A stretch of 64,000 nt of DNA from Erythrobacter sp. QSSC1-22B (lineage in GTDB: Bacteria > Pseudomonadota > Alphaproteobacteria > Sphingomonadales > Sphingomonadaceae), in the NCBI RefSeq assembly GCF_001678665.1, contig NZ_LZRP01000003.1, positions 186,001-250,000 on the forward strand. The letters run 5' to 3'. The position numbers and the translations under genes are program-made. Numbering within the stretch: position 1 is the first letter of the stretch; the number at the start of each line of letters is the position of its first letter. Under the pieces are notes generated by a model. That model searched no databases. It was not told where the DNA came from and was given only the letters and a program-made list of their open reading frames with translations. This document shows positions 43,393 to 55,227 of the stretch, in pieces.

Positions 43393-44385
43393 TCAGCTGC
43401 GACGCATCCAAAAGCCCGGAATTAGATCTGCGAAAGTTTCTAACTGTTCGTCGCTTGCGCCCAACACCACCACCATCAGCGAGAACGGCGTGGGCTGCGA
43501 GCGCCCGCTTGTGTCGAGAAACCGAACACGTCCCTGAAGAAAATAGACATCGGCATCGACGCGCAGCGTCTCATGAAACCAGGCCGAGTCCGTGCGCGCC
43601 GGTACCAGGCAAACCACTGTCCGAATATTTCCCGCTCGCCATTGCTCGTGCGCCCGTCGAAGCCACTTCAGTTGCTCGGAAAATGGCGGATTGACGTAAG
43701 CGAGCTTGCCAAACCAGTGATCGGTCAATCCGTCATCGCCATGTTCGAGAATGAATTTCCGCTTCGCGACAACCGGGCTGAGCGGATGAGCGCAGGGATC
43801 GAGATCGATCTCGCCGAAAGCGGCATAGACGCTTTGCATGAAATCATCCGGGGTGAAGCGACTGTCCCGGTCGTCTTTATCGCCCTGTCCCCAGTAGGCG
43901 CGCTCGGGTGCTCGTCGCTTCGCCTTAGGCGCCAGAGCTTCTAGGATGCGTAGCAGACTGGCCACCGAATCGCCTCCCTGCTCGACCGCAGCGATGGTGG
44001 TAGGGGAGAGGCCGGTTCGCTTCGCAAGCGCAGCGACCGACGTCTTCTTTCTAATCCGTTGATTGCGCAATTGCTCGGCGAGTGACTTGCCAGAGGCGAC
44101 GCCGGTCAGCCTAAAATCCAGCGCAACCATTGCAACCTCCAGAGTAGCAGTCGAACCGATACCCCGCTCAAGGCGATGAACGGCTTGGGCGCTTACGCCG
44201 ATCCGGTCCGCGAGTGTCCTTTGAAGCCAGCCTTTGGCTTCCCGCGCGGCGCGCAGATCGTCGATCAGAATATGATGTCTCCAGATATCACATATGCCAG
44301 ATGATAATCCGCTCGCTAAGTTCCGGCAACTGCCAGTTTCTTCGAACTTTCGAGGATAGTCGGCTGCGAGCATCGATGTGGACAA
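43393..44385 (-). CDS. Two HTH domains fused to a phage-type N6-adenine methyltransferase
   Basis: 330 residues. XRE-type HTH 1 lies at about 40-90 (LADRIGVSAQAVHRLERG), HTH 2 at about 100-150 (LAKRTGLSPTTIAAVEQGG). A C-terminal Dam-like domain has IDLDPCAHPLSPV and AYVNPPFSEQLKW; NPPF is the catalytic (D/N)PP(Y/F) motif of adenine methylases of the phage Dam type. It may both bind its promoter and methylate DNA, as an orphan methylase-regulator. The start is uncertain: ATG 44385 or 44373 both lack a good site, and the HTH starts about 40 codons in. Divergent from the gene at 44575. Confidence 0.75.
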   Translation of the reverse strand: MSTSMLAADYPRKFEETGSCRNLASGLSSGICDIWRHHILIDDLRAAREAKGWLQRTLADRIGVSAQAVHRLERGIGSTATLEVAMVALDFRLTGVASGKSLAEQLRNQRIRKKTSVAALAKRTGLSPTTIAAVEQGGDSVASLLRILEALAPKAKRRAPERAYWGQGDKDDRDSRFTPDDFMQSVYAAFGEIDLDPCAHPLSPVVAKRKFILEHGDDGLTDHWFGKLAYVNPPFSEQLKWLRRAHEQWRAGNIRTVVCLVPARTDSAWFHETLRVDADVYFLQGRVRFLDTSGRSQPTPFSLMVVVLGASDEQLETFADLIPGFWMRRS

Positions 44386-46910: not shown

Positions 46911-47543
46911 ATGGGATATTCTAGATTCGATCGACCCTTGCAGCCCCGTGCAGCGTGGAATGCAGGTAAAAATGTCGGAACCAAGCGCCCTCTGACCCAG
47001 AAGCAAATTTGGGCGATCCGTTTCCATCTTGATCGGGAGGGACGCCTGCGAGACAAGGCGCTGTTCGACCTCGCAATCGACAGTAAGCTGCGTGGCTGTG
47101 ACTTGGTCAAAATCAAAATTGGTGATGTCGTTGCAGGTGGAGACGTCAGGTTAAGAGCGATCGTAATCCAGCAGAAGACAAATCGGCCTGTTCAGTTTGA
47201 ACTGACGGCCGACGTGCGTGCAACATTATCGTCATGGCTCGATCGCCGAGGTGGTTCGCCCAGCGACTACTTGTTTCCAAGCAGGATCGATCACGCTGGC
47301 CACATGAGCACGCGCCAATACGCACGCTTGGTTGACGAGTGGGTCACCGCCATCGGCTTACGAAAAGCCGAATACGGCACGCATTCGCTTCGAAGGACCA
47401 AGGCCGCGATGATCTATCGCGCCACGGGCAATATCCGAGCGATCCAGATCCTTCTTGGTCACACGAAGATCGAAAACACGGTGCGGTATCTCGGTGTCGA
47501 TGTTGAAGATGCGTTGCTGTTAGCGGAACGCACGGAAATCTGA
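46911..47543 (+). CDS. Minimal tyrosine recombinase/integrase
   Basis: 210 residues, AGGAGAAG just before ATG 46911. All catalytic residues of the tyrosine recombinase family are present: Arg61 (KLRGCDL), Lys89, His158/Arg161 (THSLRRT), His184 (LLGHTKI) and Tyr193. The normal N-terminal core-binding domain (about 100 residues) is missing, which is usual for this short type common in sphingomonad and rhizobial genomes. It may rely on another protein for DNA recognition. Marks the right end of the mobilisation remnant. Confidence 0.85.
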   Translation: MGYSRFDRPLQPRAAWNAGKNVGTKRPLTQKQIWAIRFHLDREGRLRDKALFDLAIDSKLRGCDLVKIKIGDVVAGGDVRLRAIVIQQKTNRPVQFELTADVRATLSSWLDRRGGSPSDYLFPSRIDHAGHMSTRQYARLVDEWVTAIGLRKAEYGTHSLRRTKAAMIYRATGNIRAIQILLGHTKIENTVRYLGVDVEDALLLAERTEI

Positions 47544-47584: not shown

Positions 47585-47769
47585 GGGGGCCTTCGACTAC
47601 GCGGCGTTCGGCTGCCAAACTGGCCGTCCATTGACCCACCGATAGACTGACAGGCTCGGCCAATTCCACTGCGCAGGTCCCGAATATCTTTCGCAGCTGC
47701 ATCCGCGGCGCGCTTGCAGACGTATCTTATCCTGCAACACAAGTTGTGAGAGATCAGAGGACTGCAATT

Positions 47770-48363
47770 ATGAGCAAGAATAAGTTTCGCGCGAGCGCTG
47801 CCATGCTGGCAATGGGCCTGTCGCTGGCCGCCTGCACGACAATGAGTGACGACATGATGGCGACTTCTGCCAATGCAGGCGCCAGCGTGATGGTTGGCGG
47901 CGCTGCAATGTTCCCCAACCGCACAATAGTCGAAAACGCCGTGAATTCACGCGACCACACCACGCTGGTTGCTGCAGTGCAGGCGGCGGGGCTCGTCGAT
48001 ACCTTGTCCGGGCCCGGACCCTTTACGGTCTTTGCTCCGACCAATGACGCCTTCGCCAAGCTGCCAGCCGGGACAGTCGATACGCTGTTGCAGCCCGCCA
48101 ACCGAGCGATGCTGCAGTCGGTGCTGACCTACCATGTCGTCCCGGGACGCCTCACCGCTGCGGACCTGATGACCCAGATCAGGGCGGGTGGCGGCCAGGC
48201 CCAGCTAACCACCGTCCAAGGTGGAACGCTGACCGCTCGCATGATGGGCGACAAGATCATGCTGGTCGATGCAAAGGGTGGGATGTCTCATGTGACGCAA
48301 GCCAATGTCATGCAATCGAACGGCGTGATCCACGTCACGGATGGCGTCTCGCTTCCAGGCTGA
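47770..48363 (+). CDS. Fasciclin-domain lipoprotein
   Basis: 197 residues. Lipobox LSLAACTTM at about residue 20; a fasciclin (FAS1/beta-Ig-H3) domain with TVFAPTNDAFAKLPAG and the final IHVTDGVSLPG. AGAGGA lies 8 bases before ATG 47770. FAS1 lipoproteins act in cell-surface adhesion or envelope stress and are often in ECF-sigma regulons. It precedes the exported MsrB gene by 71 bp on the same strand. Confidence 0.88.
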   Translation: MSKNKFRASAAMLAMGLSLAACTTMSDDMMATSANAGASVMVGGAAMFPNRTIVENAVNSRDHTTLVAAVQAAGLVDTLSGPGPFTVFAPTNDAFAKLPAGTVDTLLQPANRAMLQSVLTYHVVPGRLTAADLMTQIRAGGGQAQLTTVQGGTLTARMMGDKIMLVDAKGGMSHVTQANVMQSNGVIHVTDGVSLPG

Positions 48364-48382
48364 TGCAGCAGCCACAGTTACC

Positions 48383-48423
48383 GGGACGTCGGGTACCTGT
48401 TTGCCGCGGCGTCCCAACCTTTT
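48383..48423 (+). terminator. Possible hairpin between fasciclin and msrB
   Basis: GGGACG (48383-48388) pairs with CGTCCC (48410-48415), followed by AACCTTTT. It could be a weak terminator or attenuator; the msrB ribosome-binding site follows at once. Confidence 0.3.
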
Positions 48424-48434
48424 GAGGAGGCAAC

Positions 48435-48920
48435 ATGGAACAGTATCTGAGCCGCAGGCTTTTCCTGGGTTCATCCGCCACCGCGATCGTTGCGCTTACT
48501 TTTCCACTTGGCAGTCTGGCAGCGGCAGAGCGTTTTCCGACTAGCAAGTCCCCGCAGCAATGGCGGCGCATCCTCTCGAGGCAACGGTATGCGGTGCTTC
48601 GGGAAGAGAAAACGGAGCCACCCTTTTCAAGCCCGCTTGACCGGGAGAAACGCCGCGGCACCTATGCTTGTGCCGGATGCTCGCTACCGGTGTTCAGTTC
48701 AACCGCGAAGTATGACAGCGGCACTGGCTGGCCCAGCTTCTATGCGCCCTTGCGCAATGCAGTTGGCACGCGCGCGGACAACAAACTCTCTTTCGAGCGC
48801 ACCGAAGTCCATTGCCGCCGATGCGGCGGACACTTCGGACACGTGTTCAACGATGGGCCGAAGCCGACCGGCAAACGCTATTGTTTGAATGGCTTGGCAC
48901 TGTTGTTTAACCCGGGCTGA
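48435..48920 (+). CDS. msrB: Exported methionine-R-sulfoxide reductase MsrB
   Basis: 161 residues. The N terminus has a twin-arginine signal (SRRLFLGSSATA), so it is exported folded; most MsrB are cytoplasmic. Zinc cysteines 79/82 (CAGC) and 127/130 (CRRC) and catalytic Cys150 (RYCLNG) are all present; GTGWPSFY and GGHFGHVFNDG are family motifs. It should reduce methionine-R-sulfoxide in periplasmic proteins. TTTTGAGGAGG precedes ATG 48435. Its neighbour sigma/anti-sigma pair suggests control by oxidative envelope stress. Confidence 0.93.
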   Translation: MEQYLSRRLFLGSSATAIVALTFPLGSLAAAERFPTSKSPQQWRRILSRQRYAVLREEKTEPPFSSPLDREKRRGTYACAGCSLPVFSSTAKYDSGTGWPSFYAPLRNAVGTRADNKLSFERTEVHCRRCGGHFGHVFNDGPKPTGKRYCLNGLALLFNPG

Positions 48921-48946
48921 TCCCCCCCCTGATGCCTGGGCGAAAG

Positions 48947-48981
48947 AGCGGCCCCGTTTGTGCCCCAGACGGGGCCGCTCA
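48947..48981. terminator. Strong 12-bp hairpin between convergent genes
   Basis: GAGCGGCCCCGT, 11-base loop, ACGGGGCCGCTC: a perfect 12-bp stem. On the minus strand it is followed by CTTTCG, so it probably ends leftward anti-sigma transcription and may also block msrB read-through. Confidence 0.6.
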
Positions 48982-49105
48982 AATCGCAGATTGGCCATTT
49001 ATTGCCGCATCGGAGGTTATCTGGACGACGCTGGTTCGAGCCATGGCCCTGATTGGGGTCGGCCTTCGGATGATAAGAGAGCTGTCAGCGTGGCTCTTGG
49101 GTCGG

Positions 49106-49897
49106 CTAACTCAAAGGTGCCAATGCCGCGGCGCCCAGGATCGTCGTGGCCGTCGGTTGCTCGCTCGGTATGTCTGCCTGAGGTTCAAGCGAAAGAGCAA
49201 TCGCACTGCCCGCAGCGATATCGGCACGCATCTCCGGTGAAAGCTCAAGCACGATTGTGGAATTGGCCGAGCTTTGACCAAGGGATCTCAGTCGGCCATC
49301 GGGTCCGATGACCCACAACTCTGGAACCAGCTCTCCCGGAGGGATGGTATCTATGCGAACCGTGAGCTTGCCGGCAGTGTCGTCATAGACTGCGGTCAGT
49401 AGCGGCCCCTCATCCGGGCGATTGACCTGTGCAACCCGCAGCATTTCAGGATTCAGTGGCCGGTCGCCCGAAAGCGCCGCGATTTGCGAACCAAGCGCAG
49501 CGTTATCCCGTCGTTCCTGCAACCACAGACCAGTCAGGACTATCGCGGCAATCGAGGCGGCGATGGTTCCGGTCCGCCAGCCTCTCGATGGGTGACCGCG
49601 GTCGTTTGCCGCGGAAGGTTTGATCGGGTCGGCCAGGTCGGCAGATACACCAATCGATGCTTCCACACGGCGCCACAAATTCTCCGGCTGCCAGTCAGCG
49701 GTATCCGCCTCGGCATCTTGCTCAGTTCTGGACCAGCCTTCGCCCACTTCCTGCCACCGGGTGACGGCAAGTGCGAAACCGGCATCCTCCGCCTGGCGTT
49801 GGCGCGCAGCAGAAAGGGACTCACCCTCGAGAAATCCTAAGGCGAGTTCGGCCGCGAGGAGGTCATCCTTTTCCGTGATGTCCGGGCGCTCAGTCAC
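49106..49897 (-). CDS. Anti-sigma factor (RskA/anti-sigma-K type)
   Basis: 263 residues: cytoplasmic N-terminal sigma-binding segment, one TM helix (GTIAASIAAIVLTGLWL, about residues 108-124), then a periplasmic RskA-type beta domain with LTVRIDTIPPGELVPELWVIGPDG. It should hold the ECF sigma factor inactive at the membrane until an envelope signal releases it. Its start overlaps the sigma stop by several bases (49890-49897), so the two are made together. Confidence 0.88.
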   Translation of the reverse strand: MTERPDITEKDDLLAAELALGFLEGESLSAARQRQAEDAGFALAVTRWQEVGEGWSRTEQDAEADTADWQPENLWRRVEASIGVSADLADPIKPSAANDRGHPSRGWRTGTIAASIAAIVLTGLWLQERRDNAALGSQIAALSGDRPLNPEMLRVAQVNRPDEGPLLTAVYDDTAGKLTVRIDTIPPGELVPELWVIGPDGRLRSLGQSSANSTIVLELSPEMRADIAAGSAIALSLEPQADIPSEQPTATTILGAAALAPLS

Positions 49898-50447
49898 GCG
49901 TCACCTGCGCACGCAAAGCCATCAAGCCCCGCCGGATGCGGGTCTTGACGGTTCCCAAGGGGACACCTGCCTCGTCAGCCACTTGGGAGTAGGTGAGGCC
50001 ACGCAGATAGGCACTGCGAATATAGCTCTGTTCGGGATCGGAAAGCGCATCAATCTCACGCCGAAGGTTTTCAGCTTCCTCTTCACGGATCAGCCGCTCG
50101 TCGGTCAGAGCCGCCTCGTCGGCTACCAAAACCAAGGGGTAATCATTTACCGTCGGCCTCCTGCCGCGAGCGCGCACGCGATCAATCGCACTGTTACGGG
50201 CGATAAAGCTCAGCCAAACCATAGGCGAACCCTTCTCGGGATCGTATCCGGCGGCGCGGTTCCAGACTTTCGTATACACTTCTTGCAATACGTCTTCCGT
50301 CGCCTCGCGGTTTCGGACCACGGCAAAGCAAATTGCATAGAGCTCGCTCGCCGTCGCCTCGTAAAGCCGGCGCATGGCCTCGCTGTCTCTGTCAGCGATC
50401 CCCGTGAGCGCCGCCACCACGTCGGTATTGCAAGAAGATCGTGCCAT
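49890..50447 (-). CDS. ECF-type sigma-70 factor
   Basis: 185 residues. Region 2: LYAICFAVVRNREATEDVLQEVYTKVW; region 4: LRGLTYSQVADEAGVPLGTVKTRIRRGL. The region-2/region-4 layout without region 1 or 3 is the ECF type; the partner anti-sigma and length place it among SigK/RskA-like pairs. First gene of a minus-strand operon, divergent from the DUF4331 gene at 50601. ATG 50447 has no strong ribosome-binding site. It is the likely regulator of the DUF4331 operon and of the fasciclin and msrB genes. Confidence 0.92.
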   Translation of the reverse strand: MARSSCNTDVVAALTGIADRDSEAMRRLYEATASELYAICFAVVRNREATEDVLQEVYTKVWNRAAGYDPEKGSPMVWLSFIARNSAIDRVRARGRRPTVNDYPLVLVADEAALTDERLIREEEAENLRREIDALSDPEQSYIRSAYLRGLTYSQVADEAGVPLGTVKTRIRRGLMALRAQVTRD

Positions 50448-50600
50448 GCTGATGGTAGGTTCGACCCCTTAAGCGATGCCCATCACTAAGGCCAAAAGCA
50501 GTCGCGCGGCAAGGCCGGAGAAAAATTTCCGCATTTCCAAATCCGCAGACTGCCCGCGCCCGTATTGTCACCATGGCCGCGTGTTGATGCTCGGTCTGTG

Positions 50601-51290
50601 ATGAATTTGCGGCGAGATTGCGCTGTGAAATCCAAGACAAGAATACCTCTGGCCGTCGCTTTGACCAGCGCGGCAGCAGGGGCCGGATTGTGGATGGCTG
50701 GTATTGGCCTGACCGCAGCCGATCACCTTGACCCGCCAAGCCGGACTGACCCGGCTCAGGACTCCACTCCCGACCGGGCAGCGGACATCGCCGATATCTA
50801 CGCTTGGCACACTGACACTGAAGTCAATCTCGTCCTCACCTTTGCCGGACCACAGGCGACGACTGCACCTGCCACCTACGATCCCGACGTTCTCTACACG
50901 ATCAACCTCTCAAATTCCGGTCCGCGGACAACGCCTGATCTCCCGATTCAAATTCGTTTCGGTCGCGGCAGCGGCGCGGATGAATTTGGCGTGCAGGTGA
51001 GCGGCCTGCCAGGCGTTGGTGGAACCATTGAGGGGGCCGTCGAAACGGATTTGACCAAGGACGGCGTCCGTGTTCGTGCCGGGCTGTTCGACGATCCGTT
51101 CTTTTTCGATCTTCAGGGCTTTCGCGAGACAGCTTCGACCGGGAAGCTGAGTTTCAATCCCAATCGCGATTTCTTCGCGGGGCAAAACTTGACCGCTGTG
51201 GTGATCAGTATCCCGCGGAATCGGATAGAAAATGGTGCCAATCTGGTTGACGTCTGGGCAACCACCTCGCGCTTCGGAGGGCAGCTTTAA
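50601..51290 (+). CDS. DUF4331-family exported protein 1
   Basis: About 229 residues. A hydrophobic signal-like segment (LAVALTSAAAGAGLWMAGIGLTA) is followed by ADHLDPPSRTDPA, the recurring DUF4331 entry motif, and beta-rich sequence with DVLYTINLSN and AVVISIPRNRI. Start: ATG 50601 is chosen; GTG 50625 is also possible and neither has a strong site. The stop overlaps the next ATG (TAATG). DUF4331 proteins are periplasmic or surface, function undefined. Confidence 0.8.
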   Translation: MNLRRDCAVKSKTRIPLAVALTSAAAGAGLWMAGIGLTAADHLDPPSRTDPAQDSTPDRAADIADIYAWHTDTEVNLVLTFAGPQATTAPATYDPDVLYTINLSNSGPRTTPDLPIQIRFGRGSGADEFGVQVSGLPGVGGTIEGAVETDLTKDGVRVRAGLFDDPFFFDLQGFRETASTGKLSFNPNRDFFAGQNLTAVVISIPRNRIENGANLVDVWATTSRFGGQL

Positions 51291-52012
51291 TGAACAGTCT
51301 CTTTACACCCGCGCGCCGTCGTAAGTTTGTGGTTGCACCGCTTGTGCTCTCGCTCGGGCTCCTATCAGCCTGTTTTGATGGCAACGACGACGATGGCCTT
51401 GCCGCTGTGCCGCCACCGGTTCCGACGCCGGTGCCGACCCCCACTCCGACTCCTGCCAGTTTCAATGTCTCTCCTTGTCTTGATCAGGTGGTGCCGGGAA
51501 CCGGCGGCGTTACTGTTGCTCAAGCGGTCGTCCCCGATACTTTGACCCTGAACCTCGCAGCCGCGTCGGGCTTCCCCAATGGACGCAAATTGCCCGACCC
51601 GGTTATCGATGTGACGCTCGCGGTTATCTTCTTGGACCTGACCGTGCACGGAGCAGGGACATTGGCAGGTCTCCCTCTCAATCCCCCCGCCAACGATGTT
51701 CCTTTTCGCGCAGGCTTCCCTTTCCTTGCACAGGCGCAAGGCTCGCCGCCGCAGCCGTCGGGTGGAAGTTCGTTCGGGTTCAGAACGAATGCTCCGTCTG
51801 CCTATGTCCGGGTAGACCGGATGGGCATGCCGGCAGTGGCAACAGCTCTGATCGGCTCCGACCAGAAAATTCCCTACAATGATGCCAATCCGGCTGACGA
51901 TGCGGCGGGCACTTTCGTGCCTGAACTCGTGGAGCAGTTGACTGGGTTGACCAATGCTCTGGCCGACGACCTGGTCGGTGCCGGGCTAACGCCCTGCGCA
52001 AAGCCGAGCTAG
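51290..52012 (+). CDS. DUF4331-family lipoprotein 2
   Basis: 240 residues. Lipobox LGLLSACFD at about residue 22-30, then a Pro/Thr-rich linker (PPPVPTPVPTPTPTP) and a domain with FPNGRKLPDPVIDVTLAVIFLDL, the DUF4331 C-terminal signature (GR..PD.V.D). It and the previous gene look like the two halves of a longer DUF4331 protein of other bacteria, here separate. One-base overlap with the preceding stop. Confidence 0.8.
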   Translation: MNSLFTPARRRKFVVAPLVLSLGLLSACFDGNDDDGLAAVPPPVPTPVPTPTPTPASFNVSPCLDQVVPGTGGVTVAQAVVPDTLTLNLAAASGFPNGRKLPDPVIDVTLAVIFLDLTVHGAGTLAGLPLNPPANDVPFRAGFPFLAQAQGSPPQPSGGSSFGFRTNAPSAYVRVDRMGMPAVATALIGSDQKIPYNDANPADDAAGTFVPELVEQLTGLTNALADDLVGAGLTPCAKPS

Positions 52013-52038
52013 TCGATTTGCTGCCGCCATTGGTAAAT

Positions 52039-53430
52039 ATGCAGGACGGGTGCGTCTCCGCGCGCACCCGTTTCGCTGCTCTCCGCTGGCAAAACGGACC
52101 GCGTTCAGTCTGGCGGGGACCTGCCCTTGTCCTTGCGGCTCTCCTTATTGTCGCGGCAGGAGAGTATCTTCTCAATCGAGAGGACGAACCGGCGAGAGTT
52201 CAGTTTGCACTCGCTGCGCCCGACTTCGGACCCGCAGACTATCAGGCACATAGCGAGACCCTGAAGGATCGTCTGGAACTCGACCGGGAGCGGGTCGCTC
52301 GGGCACCGGGAGAATGGCTACCGCGTGCAAGTCTCGCGAGCGCTTTGCTCGCCGACTTCAGGGTCACCGGCCGGGTGGAAAGCCTTGAAATCGCCCGGCG
52401 CGAGTATTCGCTGGTGCAGTCGCTGGCTCCCGAACCGGCGGGTGCGCCGCTTGCTCTCGCTGACTTTGCACTGGCCACACACGACATCGCGGCAGCGAAA
52501 TCTGCGCTCGTGGTGTTTTCCCGGTCGGCGGTTCCACCGACCCCGATCGAACGCTCAGAAGCCTTCGCGATGCACAGCGATATTGCCTTTTATAAGGCAG
52601 ACCTTGCCGCAGCACACCAGCGTCTTGCGCAAGCAGAAGGGCTGGCAGCCGGTTCCGGCATCCATATTCGCCAAGCTCTTCTGTTGCGCTCCACCGGCGA
52701 ATTCGATGGCGCGCTTACGAGACTTGCGCATGCCAGCACCAGCACCTCACGCACCCCCCTGACGCTTGCCTCAATTGCCTTGCAGGCAGGGGTGATCGAA
52801 AGCAGCAGAGGAAACTACGCCAAAGCCAGGAACTGGTATGAGACGGCAGAAAGGTTGTTCCCAGGCTATTGGCTAACGCGCCTGCATTTGGCGGAAGCCC
52901 GTCTTGTGGCCGGGGAAGACGTGCAGGCCATCGCAGAGCTTGAAAGTATCGTCGAACAATCTCCGCGCCCGGAGGCGATGGATATGCTGGCGCTTATTTA
53001 CCGTGTCAAAGGTCAGCGAGCGAAGAGCCTCGAATGGTCACGCCGAGCATCTGCGATCTGGCGCCAGCGAGTTGCGGAATTCCCTAACGCATATGGCGCT
53101 CACGCAGCCGAGCACGAACTTGTGTTTGGTGACCCGAACCGTGCTCTGGCGCTTGCAATCCAAAACCGCCGCGCGAGACCTTATGGCGAAGCGCGGATCC
53201 TGCTCGCAAATACCCTTATCGCGAATGGCCAACCCGAGATCGCACTTGATGAGCTAATCGCGGCAGAAGCCAGTGGCTGGCGTTCTGCTACTCTATATGC
53301 GGCGAAGGCACAGGCCTCCGATTTGCTCGGCCACACAGATAACGCCGAGACCTATCGCGAGCAGGCAATCAGCTTGAACCCGGAAATTTTTGCAGCCCGA
53401 ACGAGGATGGTATGGCTGGCACACGGATAG
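52039..53430 (+). CDS. Membrane-anchored TPR protein
   Basis: About 463 residues. An N-terminal TM helix (GPALVLAALLIVAAGEYLL) is followed by repeated 34-residue helical hairpins, e.g. VIESSRGNYAKARNWYETAERLFPGYWLTRLHLAEARL and DMLALIYRVKGQRAKSLEW. TPR proteins act as scaffolds. Start ATG 52039 and TTG 52018 are both without a good ribosome-binding site. It overlaps the HupE gene by 19 bases. Likely binds the DUF4331 lipoproteins in the periplasm, inferred from operon order. Confidence 0.82.
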   Translation: MQDGCVSARTRFAALRWQNGPRSVWRGPALVLAALLIVAAGEYLLNREDEPARVQFALAAPDFGPADYQAHSETLKDRLELDRERVARAPGEWLPRASLASALLADFRVTGRVESLEIARREYSLVQSLAPEPAGAPLALADFALATHDIAAAKSALVVFSRSAVPPTPIERSEAFAMHSDIAFYKADLAAAHQRLAQAEGLAAGSGIHIRQALLLRSTGEFDGALTRLAHASTSTSRTPLTLASIALQAGVIESSRGNYAKARNWYETAERLFPGYWLTRLHLAEARLVAGEDVQAIAELESIVEQSPRPEAMDMLALIYRVKGQRAKSLEWSRRASAIWRQRVAEFPNAYGAHAAEHELVFGDPNRALALAIQNRRARPYGEARILLANTLIANGQPEIALDELIAAEASGWRSATLYAAKAQASDLLGHTDNAETYREQAISLNPEIFAARTRMVWLAHG

Positions 53431-54716
53431 GTCTTGCAGCACGGTTGTTGTTCTTTTGGGTCGTCGCCAATTTTTCGGCACTTGCGCTCGCCCATGTGAC
53501 GCCAAACAGCGAGGGCCAGCTCGACCTTTACGACGACCGGGTCGAGCTGGAAGTCATCATCCCTGCCGCCGAATACAGTTTTGCGAGCGAGCACCCCGCC
53601 GCGAATGACGCCCAGTCCCTGAAACTGGCGGAAACCTATCTGTCAAACCAGATTGGACTGATATCTCCGAGCGGAAACCGCTGGACTACCGAGATCTACG
53701 AGGCCCGGTTTGTGTCTGATGCCGGCCCGATCGATCTACGAGGCCGCATAGTCCTGCGGCCTCCGGCAGGCGAAGGCGCCCGAAGCTTTGATCTGGTGTG
53801 GAACGCGGTGGTCCGCGAAGTGCCCGATCATTTCGCCCTGGTGATGCTGCGCAGCGACTGGGGAGGCAAAATCGGCTCTCAATCGGAGGTGCTGGGCTCC
53901 GTGCGCAACGGAAATACGGTCGTTAAGGTAAGACAAGGAAGGAGCAGCGAGTGGACCCGCTTTGCCAACGCAGTGCGGCTCGGGGCAGACCATATCCTCC
54001 AAGGACTGGACCATCTCGCGTTTCTCCTCGCTCTGGTCCTCACCGCGCCGCTTTTGTTTCAGGAAGGGAAATGGCAGTCGCGAAAAGATTTGGGGCCGTC
54101 TATCCGTTCCGTCGCGATCCTCATCTCCGGTTTCACGGTTGGCCACAGCGCGACATTAATCGCGGCATCTCTCTGGGGATGGAGCTTGCCATCAGGCCCG
54201 GTCGAGGTGGTTATTTCACTTTCGATCCTGGTGGCGGCACTTCACGCTCTGAAACCGATTTTTCCGCAGCGTGAAGCGTTTGCGGCCACCGCGTTCGGGC
54301 TCGTTCACGGATTGGGCTTTGCCGGCTTTTTGAGTTCGACAGATGCCGAACTTTCGCGGAATATCGTCACCTTGCTCGGCTTCAATCTCGGCATCGAGCT
54401 TATGCAACTAGCAATCGCGTCTGTTGTCGTCTCGGCTCTGGTAATTCTGGCAAGCACGCGTTTTTACTCGTGGGTGCGAGTGGGTCTGGCACTTGTCTGT
54501 GCATTTTTGGCATTGTTTTGGACATTCGATCGGCTCGTGGGCTTGCCGATCAATCTGGTCGAGGCAACCGACGCCGCCATAGAGGCATTGAGCCAATATC
54601 TGCTCGTCACCGCCTTCATTGTGATTTTGTTCGGAATTTACTCGCGGACAAATCTGAAATGGTTCGGCCGTTTCCAATGGTTTTCACGGTTTGGTCTCTC
54701 TCGGAGGCCATCGTGA
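53412..54716 (+). CDS. HupE/UreJ-type membrane protein
   Basis: 434 residues. After a signal-like segment (WVVANFSALALA), the N-terminal half is a periplasmic beta domain; the C-terminal half has six to seven TM helices with HILQGLDHLAFLLALVL, GFTVGHSATLIAASLWGW and LVHGLGFAGFL, the HupE/UreJ_2 signature. Histidines in these TM motifs suggest metal binding (Ni or other). GAGGA lies 5 bases before ATG 53412. Probably the core transporter of the DUF4331-TPR operon. Confidence 0.88.
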   Translation: MAGTRIGLAARLLFFWVVANFSALALAHVTPNSEGQLDLYDDRVELEVIIPAAEYSFASEHPAANDAQSLKLAETYLSNQIGLISPSGNRWTTEIYEARFVSDAGPIDLRGRIVLRPPAGEGARSFDLVWNAVVREVPDHFALVMLRSDWGGKIGSQSEVLGSVRNGNTVVKVRQGRSSEWTRFANAVRLGADHILQGLDHLAFLLALVLTAPLLFQEGKWQSRKDLGPSIRSVAILISGFTVGHSATLIAASLWGWSLPSGPVEVVISLSILVAALHALKPIFPQREAFAATAFGLVHGLGFAGFLSSTDAELSRNIVTLLGFNLGIELMQLAIASVVVSALVILASTRFYSWVRVGLALVCAFLALFWTFDRLVGLPINLVEATDAAIEALSQYLLVTAFIVILFGIYSRTNLKWFGRFQWFSRFGLSRRPS

Positions 54717-54846
54717 TAACATCCGTGGAGATCATGACCAACTACGGGGAGAGCTTGATCTCGATCAGGACATTGTCTGCACTCAAACCTGCTGTTTGGC
54801 GAGGGTTTCGCACTTCTTTAAAGAATGGAGGCAAGGAGTAATTCCG

Positions 54847-55227
54847 ATGCTGAGCAACCACAATTTCATTCCTGATGTTACCGCTTGCTTCTGTCCGAAC
54901 TGCGGCTGCAATCTGCGCGAGTCCGAAAGGCTGGCCTACGGCAATATCGTAATCGACGAACGCGGTGATCTCTGGTTCGAAGGTCAGCCCTTGCTTTTGA
55001 CCAGATGCCAGCACCTGATCGTCGAGGCATTGGTCCGAGCGAAGGGGCGCGGACTTACGCGATCCTTCCTCGCAACCATTATCGGCGGCGAAATCTACGA
55101 TCAGACCATTTCCAAATACATTCAACGTGCCCGGGATAGCTTTCGCCACATCGAACCTGGGTTCGATCAGATCACTTCGCTTCGCGGTTTCGGCGCATAC
55201 CGATGGGAGTGTCGCACATCGTTATGA
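54847..55227 (+). CDS. Zinc-ribbon winged-helix regulator
   Basis: 126 residues. An N-terminal CPNCGC cysteine cluster (residues about 15-20) precedes an OmpR/PhoB-type winged helix (LLLTRCQHLIVEALVRAKGRGLTRSFLATII ... SKYIQRARDSF ... ITSLRGFGAYRWE). No receiver domain, so it is not a normal response regulator. GGAG precedes ATG 54847. 130 bp after the HupE gene, and same strand. Candidate local regulator of the HupE operon, with the zinc cluster as a possible redox or metal sensor. Confidence 0.78.
   Translation: MLSNHNFIPDVTACFCPNCGCNLRESERLAYGNIVIDERGDLWFEGQPLLLTRCQHLIVEALVRAKGRGLTRSFLATIIGGEIYDQTISKYIQRARDSFRHIEPGFDQITSLRGFGAYRWECRTSL

Follow-up and report, generated by a model that had tools for sequence, protein, structure and literature searches.

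A gene cluster at positions 47770-55227 of the 64,000-nucleotide stretch of Erythrobacter sp. QSSC1-22B DNA analysed here (the window) encodes an extracytoplasmic function (ECF) sigma factor and an anti-sigma factor, divergent from genes for two DUF4331 proteins, a tetratricopeptide repeat (TPR) protein and a HupE-type permease (DUF4331a-DUF4331b-TPR-HupE), with genes for a fasciclin and for MsrB on the opposite side of the pair. On the sequence and the structure models, we rate as about evenly balanced the proposal that an exported module, which would capture copper or nickel beyond the cell membrane, is under the control of a membrane switch of the SigK/RskA type. RskA would keep the sigma factor at the membrane until an envelope signal freed it, and the freed sigma factor would guide RNA polymerase to the sequence (GC/AA)ATCC-N16-CGTA upstream of both the DUF4331a-DUF4331b-TPR-HupE operon and fasciclin (with msrB). 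The switch and the permease type are known, and the operon between them is undescribed in the literature searched, in which no account of its tie to a sigma factor was found and no title, abstract or text matched DUF4331. The preliminary description of this DNA had suggested a new system; this holds for the operon and its sigma tie, but not for the SigK-RskA-fasciclin cassette, which is also known in Gram-negatives (PMC7509140), or for HupE/UreJ-2 anglerases, which have been published (PMC12537917).

Ten proteins of the window were scanned with Pfam and NCBIfam profiles, and every gene named in the preliminary description was found at the locus by profile matches and leaders. A scan of genome contigs with a 15-row DUF4331a alignment yielded 374 relatives; the best 80 were kept, corresponding to 78 loci, some of them truncated at contig ends. 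DUF4331b was found in 76 of these loci, TPR in 70, HupE in 49 (with no detection in Caulobacterales loci) and sigma with anti-sigma in 24; all four operon genes are present in 48 loci, on a single strand in 42. Among 20 loci of relatives picked by HupE or DUF4331a matches, 18 have DUF4331a-DUF4331b-TPR and 7 have sigma and anti-sigma. A wider sample of 349 genomes across the phylum yielded PF14224 matches at E <=1e-20 in 16 genomes, 15 excluding the organism's own. A single-chain DUF4331 is flanked there by sigma and anti-sigma in 11 of 15 loci and followed by TPR and HupE in 11 of 15, with both features combined in 10; a weaker ECF/RskA pair lies 2.5-4 kb from DUF4331 in two further loci of this sample (L258, L259). 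Pseudoalteromonas plasmids have the order sigma-antisigma-DUF4331-Ig-TPR-HupE, HupE being absent from one such plasmid, and DUF4331-TPR-HupE is also found on named plasmids of Marinobacter, Lichenicola and a Comamonadaceae. Three Streptomycetaceae plasmids (L267, L268, L269) encode DUF4331 and TPR with a NicO nickel-transporter protein in the permease position and an adjacent sortase; fasciclin is present in two of them, and sigK with an anti-sigma gene lies 7.7 kb further on in the third. The gene order, on which the preliminary description had staked its system, is kept beyond this strain, in Sphingomonadales and in the wider Proteobacteria, and is far beyond chance.

The fasciclin and MsrB genes, which had been counted as members of the set, are present here but are not general companions of DUF4331: fasciclin adjoins it in 1 of the 78 related loci, and MsrB (in 1.5-kb flanks) in none of the 78, nor is MsrB beside any of 29 other fasciclins. 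Among the loci examined, the MsrB linkage is limited to that of Erythrobacter sp. QSSC1-22B.

A promoter-like motif of ECF type connects the two sides of the sigma/anti-sigma pair. It occurs as AAATCC-N16-CGTA at 50539-50564 (forward strand) upstream of DUF4331a, and as GCATCC-N16-CGTA at 47699-47724 (forward strand), 46 nt upstream of the fasciclin ATG. These two matches are the only ones in the window, a number reached in 4 of 100 shuffles, and 0.72 chance matches per window are expected for the AATCC form. The motif recurs upstream of DUF4331a genes in relatives. When 250-nt upstream regions were compared with those of other genes of the same loci, sigma-linked DUF4331a genes had the strict motif in 10 of 24 cases and a relaxed form in 20 of 24, versus 0 and 4 of 603 control genes; the counts at DUF4331a loci without a neighbouring sigma were 8 and 10 of 55. 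The strict motif also precedes 12 of 15 fasciclin genes of sigma-antisigma-fasciclin loci, versus 2 of 14 fasciclins without a sigma gene within the 1.5-kb flank, and in other groups the exact motif precedes DUF4331 in four of 15 sigma-linked loci (L218, L240, L247, L250) and also in L256, which is without a sigma. Because the relaxed form, which includes GCATCG...CGTC of Qipengyuania, was derived from the same DUF4331a sequences in which it was counted, partial independence can be claimed only for the counts of the strict form, of fasciclins and of other groups. The shared promoter-like motif, which the sigma factor would recognise, supports, at the level of sequence, co-regulation of DUF4331a and fasciclin, as had been proposed.

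The permease gene (53412-54716, forward strand; HupE_UreJ_2, 127.6 bits against a cut-off of 24.5) encodes an additional N-terminal exported domain. An AlphaFold2 model of the protein, from an alignment of 39 rows (38 of 46 candidate loci and the window; pLDDT 87.9), matches in this domain 9GCE, the copper-bound Ang-1 domain of the HupE/UreJ-2 protein RbAng-1a (Foldseek E 5.4e-5, prob 1.00; VIA Z 11.3, rmsd 3.4, 131 aligned, 12% identity over the Ang domain), and the next structural matches are zinc-binding ZrgA and PA4063. Residue 28 of the model superposes on residue 1 of the 9GCE chain. All 39 rows have HX5DH, and all have His28, which would be the first residue of the mature protein; small residues precede it at -3 and -1 in 38 rows, the remaining row being truncated; the Streptomycetaceae NicO protein likewise begins AxA|HPLGNF. 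Ang-1 proteins bind copper and nickel by a mono-histidine brace and have been proposed to feed the permease, with dissociation constants for RbAng-1a of 73.6 nM (Cu) and 220 nM (Ni) (PMC12537917). HupE of the window shares with RbAng-1a a signal peptide, a histidine at mature position 1 (predicted here), an Ig-like Ang-1 fold and the HupE/UreJ-2 membrane part, and differs from it in its low sequence identity and in its fixed operon with DUF4331 and TPR, the former of which is not mentioned in the main text of PMC12537917. HupE looks like an Ang-1 anglerase that may bind copper or nickel, and this likeness strengthens the metal side of the exported system that the preliminary description had put forward.

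The two DUF4331 genes of the preliminary description are indeed two genes, DUF4331a (50625-51290, forward strand; PF14224, 55.1 bits, cut-off 27) and DUF4331b (51290-52012, forward strand; 51.6 bits, cut-off 27), but they are the N-terminal and C-terminal parts of one DUF4331 rather than two copies. DUF4331a probably starts with the GTG at 50625, the ATG at 50601 being an alternative, and has the sequence LTA|ADHLDPP around its predicted cleavage site; DUF4331b has a lipoprotein leader and a proline-rich linker. When the block order of DUF4331b was compared with a profile of 24 single-chain copies, both C-terminal blocks were found in 72 of 78 DUF4331b rows, and their order was swapped relative to the single chain in all 72. 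A locus of a Caulobacteraceae metagenome-assembled genome (L117:7689-8750) encodes a single chain that contains both the a and the b blocks, likewise in the swapped order. The split proteins resemble the products of the single-chain operons in their SHREAP/ADHLDPP start, in the H-x-[DE] and D-x2-D motifs kept in both forms, in the downstream TPR and HupE genes and in the adjoining sigma/anti-sigma genes; the sphingomonads differ in having two genes and swapped C-terminal blocks. An X-X-His sequence follows an allowed signal-cleavage site in 34 of 34 single-chain copies (with alanine at -1 in 33) as well as in 52 of the 55 split copies compared, which come from 54 of 72 candidate loci and the window. 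According to published abstracts, a free N-terminal X-X-His constitutes an amino-terminal copper and nickel binding (ATCUN) motif, which mature DUF4331 would form at the predicted cleavage site. The model of DUF4331a is rich in beta structure, and its comparison with the PDB (Foldseek best E 4e-3, prob 0.30; VIA best Z 6.4, to antibody rows) gave no convincing match and does not establish the fold as new or as known; a sequence search of the PDB found no relative of DUF4331a or DUF4331b. The third gene of the operon (52018-53430, forward strand) encodes a protein of TPR families, apparently anchored in the membrane by a hydrophobic N-terminal helix (by eye), which may provide a docking platform.

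The sigma gene (49890-50447, reverse strand) has SigK/PRK09646 as its best NCBIfam model, with 135.3 bits against that model's cut-off of 226, and the closest solved structure is SigK (4nqw, E 2.4e-22). The overlapping gene (49106-49897, reverse strand) encodes an RskA-type anti-sigma factor with one transmembrane segment (PF10099, RskA_C, 49.7 bits, cut-off 29.4). In a tree of 57 sigma factors, that of the window, its paralogue in the same genome and 15 DUF4331-linked sigmas form one 17-row clade (support 98/96), which stands apart from the fasciclin-linked group. The positions of the SigK cysteines Cys133 and Cys183 are occupied in the window sigma by Glu and Gln; the pair is absent from both copies of this genome and from all 15 named rows of the clade, and is present in 10 other DUF4331-linked sigmas, in 15 of 15 fasciclin-linked sigmas and in 15 of 15 from other groups. 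Published work describes the pair as common but not universal (56% of ECF19) and links its loss to altered control by RskA (PMC7509140). The locus resembles the SigK-RskA-MPT83 cassette of Mycobacterium tuberculosis (ECF18) and Yersinia enterocolitica (ECF19), as it is described there, in its ECF sigma factor, apparently nearest to SigK, in its adjacent RskA_C anti-sigma gene and in its neighbouring fasciclin gene with a sigma-type promoter (here a sequence motif only), and differs from it in being without the redox cysteine pair and in facing a DUF4331-TPR-HupE operon. The SigK-like RpoE-ChrR of Rhodobacter capsulatus is likewise a SigK/RskA-like pair in a phototrophic alphaproteobacterium; a link to DUF4331 or fasciclin is not stated in the part of PMC7074977 considered here.

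A more detailed version of the capture proposal is tentative and less probable than the proposal itself. Exported DUF4331, with its ATCUN N-terminus, would bind Cu(II) or Ni(II) and pass the ion, presumably inward, to an anglerase permease with His1, assembled on the TPR platform; the permease would be HupE/UreJ-2 in Proteobacteria or NicO in Streptomycetaceae, SigK-RskA would be there to run the relay, and the sphingomonads would have rebuilt DUF4331 as two permuted chains. Several results weigh against the capture proposal. The cleavage rule equally permits a site directly before the histidine in 34 of 34 single chains, and in a coarse cleavage scan X-X-His is the top-ranked site for 20 of 27 single-chain copies but for only 18 of the 55 split ones. 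HupE was undetected in 29 of the 78 loci, some of these being truncated by contig ends, and a sequence search of the PDB found no relevant relative of HupE. Upstream of DUF4331a, 4 of 24 sigma-linked loci and 45 of 55 loci without a neighbouring sigma lack even the relaxed motif, and 11 of the 15 sigma-linked loci from other groups lack the exact motif upstream of DUF4331. The strict motif was not found upstream of the window's own sigma gene or of the Streptomycetaceae DUF4331 and fasciclin genes tested. Genome-wide, the motif has 9 matches versus 13 for the reversed pattern; as it is not enriched, it supports the proposal only in context, and delineation of a regulon by the motif alone was uninformative.

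Another explanation, which we consider unlikely on balance, is that singlet oxygen triggers the SigK-like sigma factor to express MsrB, fasciclin and the DUF4331 operon as a response to photooxidative stress, metal binding being secondary. Reaction-centre genes (PF00124) are present in this genome, and in R. capsulatus the SigK-like RpoE and MsrB1/B2 are induced by singlet oxygen (PMC7074977). Within the order (396 genomes), PF00124 was found in 13 of 32 genomes with DUF4331a versus 67 of 364 without (Fisher p 0.0047, uncorrected for relatedness), and within the genus DUF4331a was found in 4 of 4 phototrophs versus 3 of 27 others (p 0.0011, the genomes not being independent); a separate count found PF00124 in 24 of 53 DUF4331a genomes. 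This association keeps the singlet-oxygen explanation alive, but PF00124 is absent from 19 of the 32 DUF4331a genomes of the order, repair enzymes are not regularly encoded next to the operon, and the same operon is present in Pseudoalteromonas, which is not known to be phototrophic.

Less probable still is a role in the surface matrix, in which fasciclin and DUF4331 would be adhesive or structural, HupE and TPR would aid export or stability, and metal ions would be structural. Fasciclin domains are adhesive, DUF4331 adjoins type II secretion genes on Rhodobacterales plasmids and sortases in Streptomyces, and the beta-rich DUF4331a model is without a convincing PDB match, but such a role leaves unexplained the N-terminal histidines of HupE and the replacement of HupE by NicO. 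The envelope response to hypochlorite envisaged in the preliminary description, in which MsrB would repair methionine and HupE would handle metal, is very improbable: MsrB and fasciclin may share a transcript behind a sigma-type promoter, but no finding points to hypochlorite, MsrB accompanies none of the other DUF4331 and fasciclin loci counted above, and the MsrP or MsrP relative that a hypochlorite system of the MsrP type would encode is absent from the ten proteins scanned, MsrB being the one methionine sulfoxide reductase among them.

The remaining genes of the cluster lie at its two ends. The fasciclin gene (47770-48363, forward strand) encodes a lipoprotein of the MPT83-like kind (PF02469, 116.6 bits; lipobox LAAC by eye), and the gene for Tat-exported MsrB (48435-48920, forward strand; TIGR00357, 158.4 bits; twin-arginine leader SRRLFLG) begins 71 nt downstream, so that the two are possibly on one transcript. 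The gene that had been described as a zinc-ribbon winged-helix regulator is present (54847-55227, forward strand, ATG start), with a single CPxCG-type knuckle and a Pfam winged-helix score of 21.6 bits, under the cut-off of 26.2; it is linked in 12 of the 78 DUF4331a loci. It is followed by an M24 peptidase gene, outside the set. A tyrosine integrase gene (46911-47543; PF00589, 82.8 bits) borders the cluster on its left, where the GC content is lower; together with the patchy distribution of DUF4331a, which 32 of 396 genomes in the order and 7 of 31 in the genus possess, it suggests horizontal arrival of the cluster. Further to the left (43393-44385), a phage-type Dam N6-adenine methyltransferase is joined to helix-turn-helix domains in one protein.

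The same genome contains a second sigma/anti-sigma pair (L213:9192-12597, G000:C2), 89% and 83% identical to that of the window, which keeps the AAATCC-N16-CGTA motif and diverges from the gene for a 535-aa single-chain DUF4331; no close homologues of this DUF4331 were found among the 40 relatives' genomes searched. A short remnant of DUF4331a is also seen there by eye, as are GspK/GspJ-like genes downstream, as in Rhodobacterales plasmids (L217, L219, L223) in which an A24 prepilin peptidase gene and a type II secretion cluster lie next to DUF4331. In those plasmids DUF4331 is possibly a substrate for secretion, and we regard the type II secretion link as a lead rather than as part of the capture proposal. 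A third SigK-like sigma with RskA (L214:3283-6924, G000:C8) is followed by a long repetitive open reading frame that resembles a surface adhesin (by eye).

Through its conserved operon, promoter-like motif and structural partner, DUF4331 becomes a testable metal-capture protein, and it provides an example of a protein family that has been split and permuted. If the capture proposal is true, the SigK-RskA-fasciclin cassette gains a possible physiological partner.

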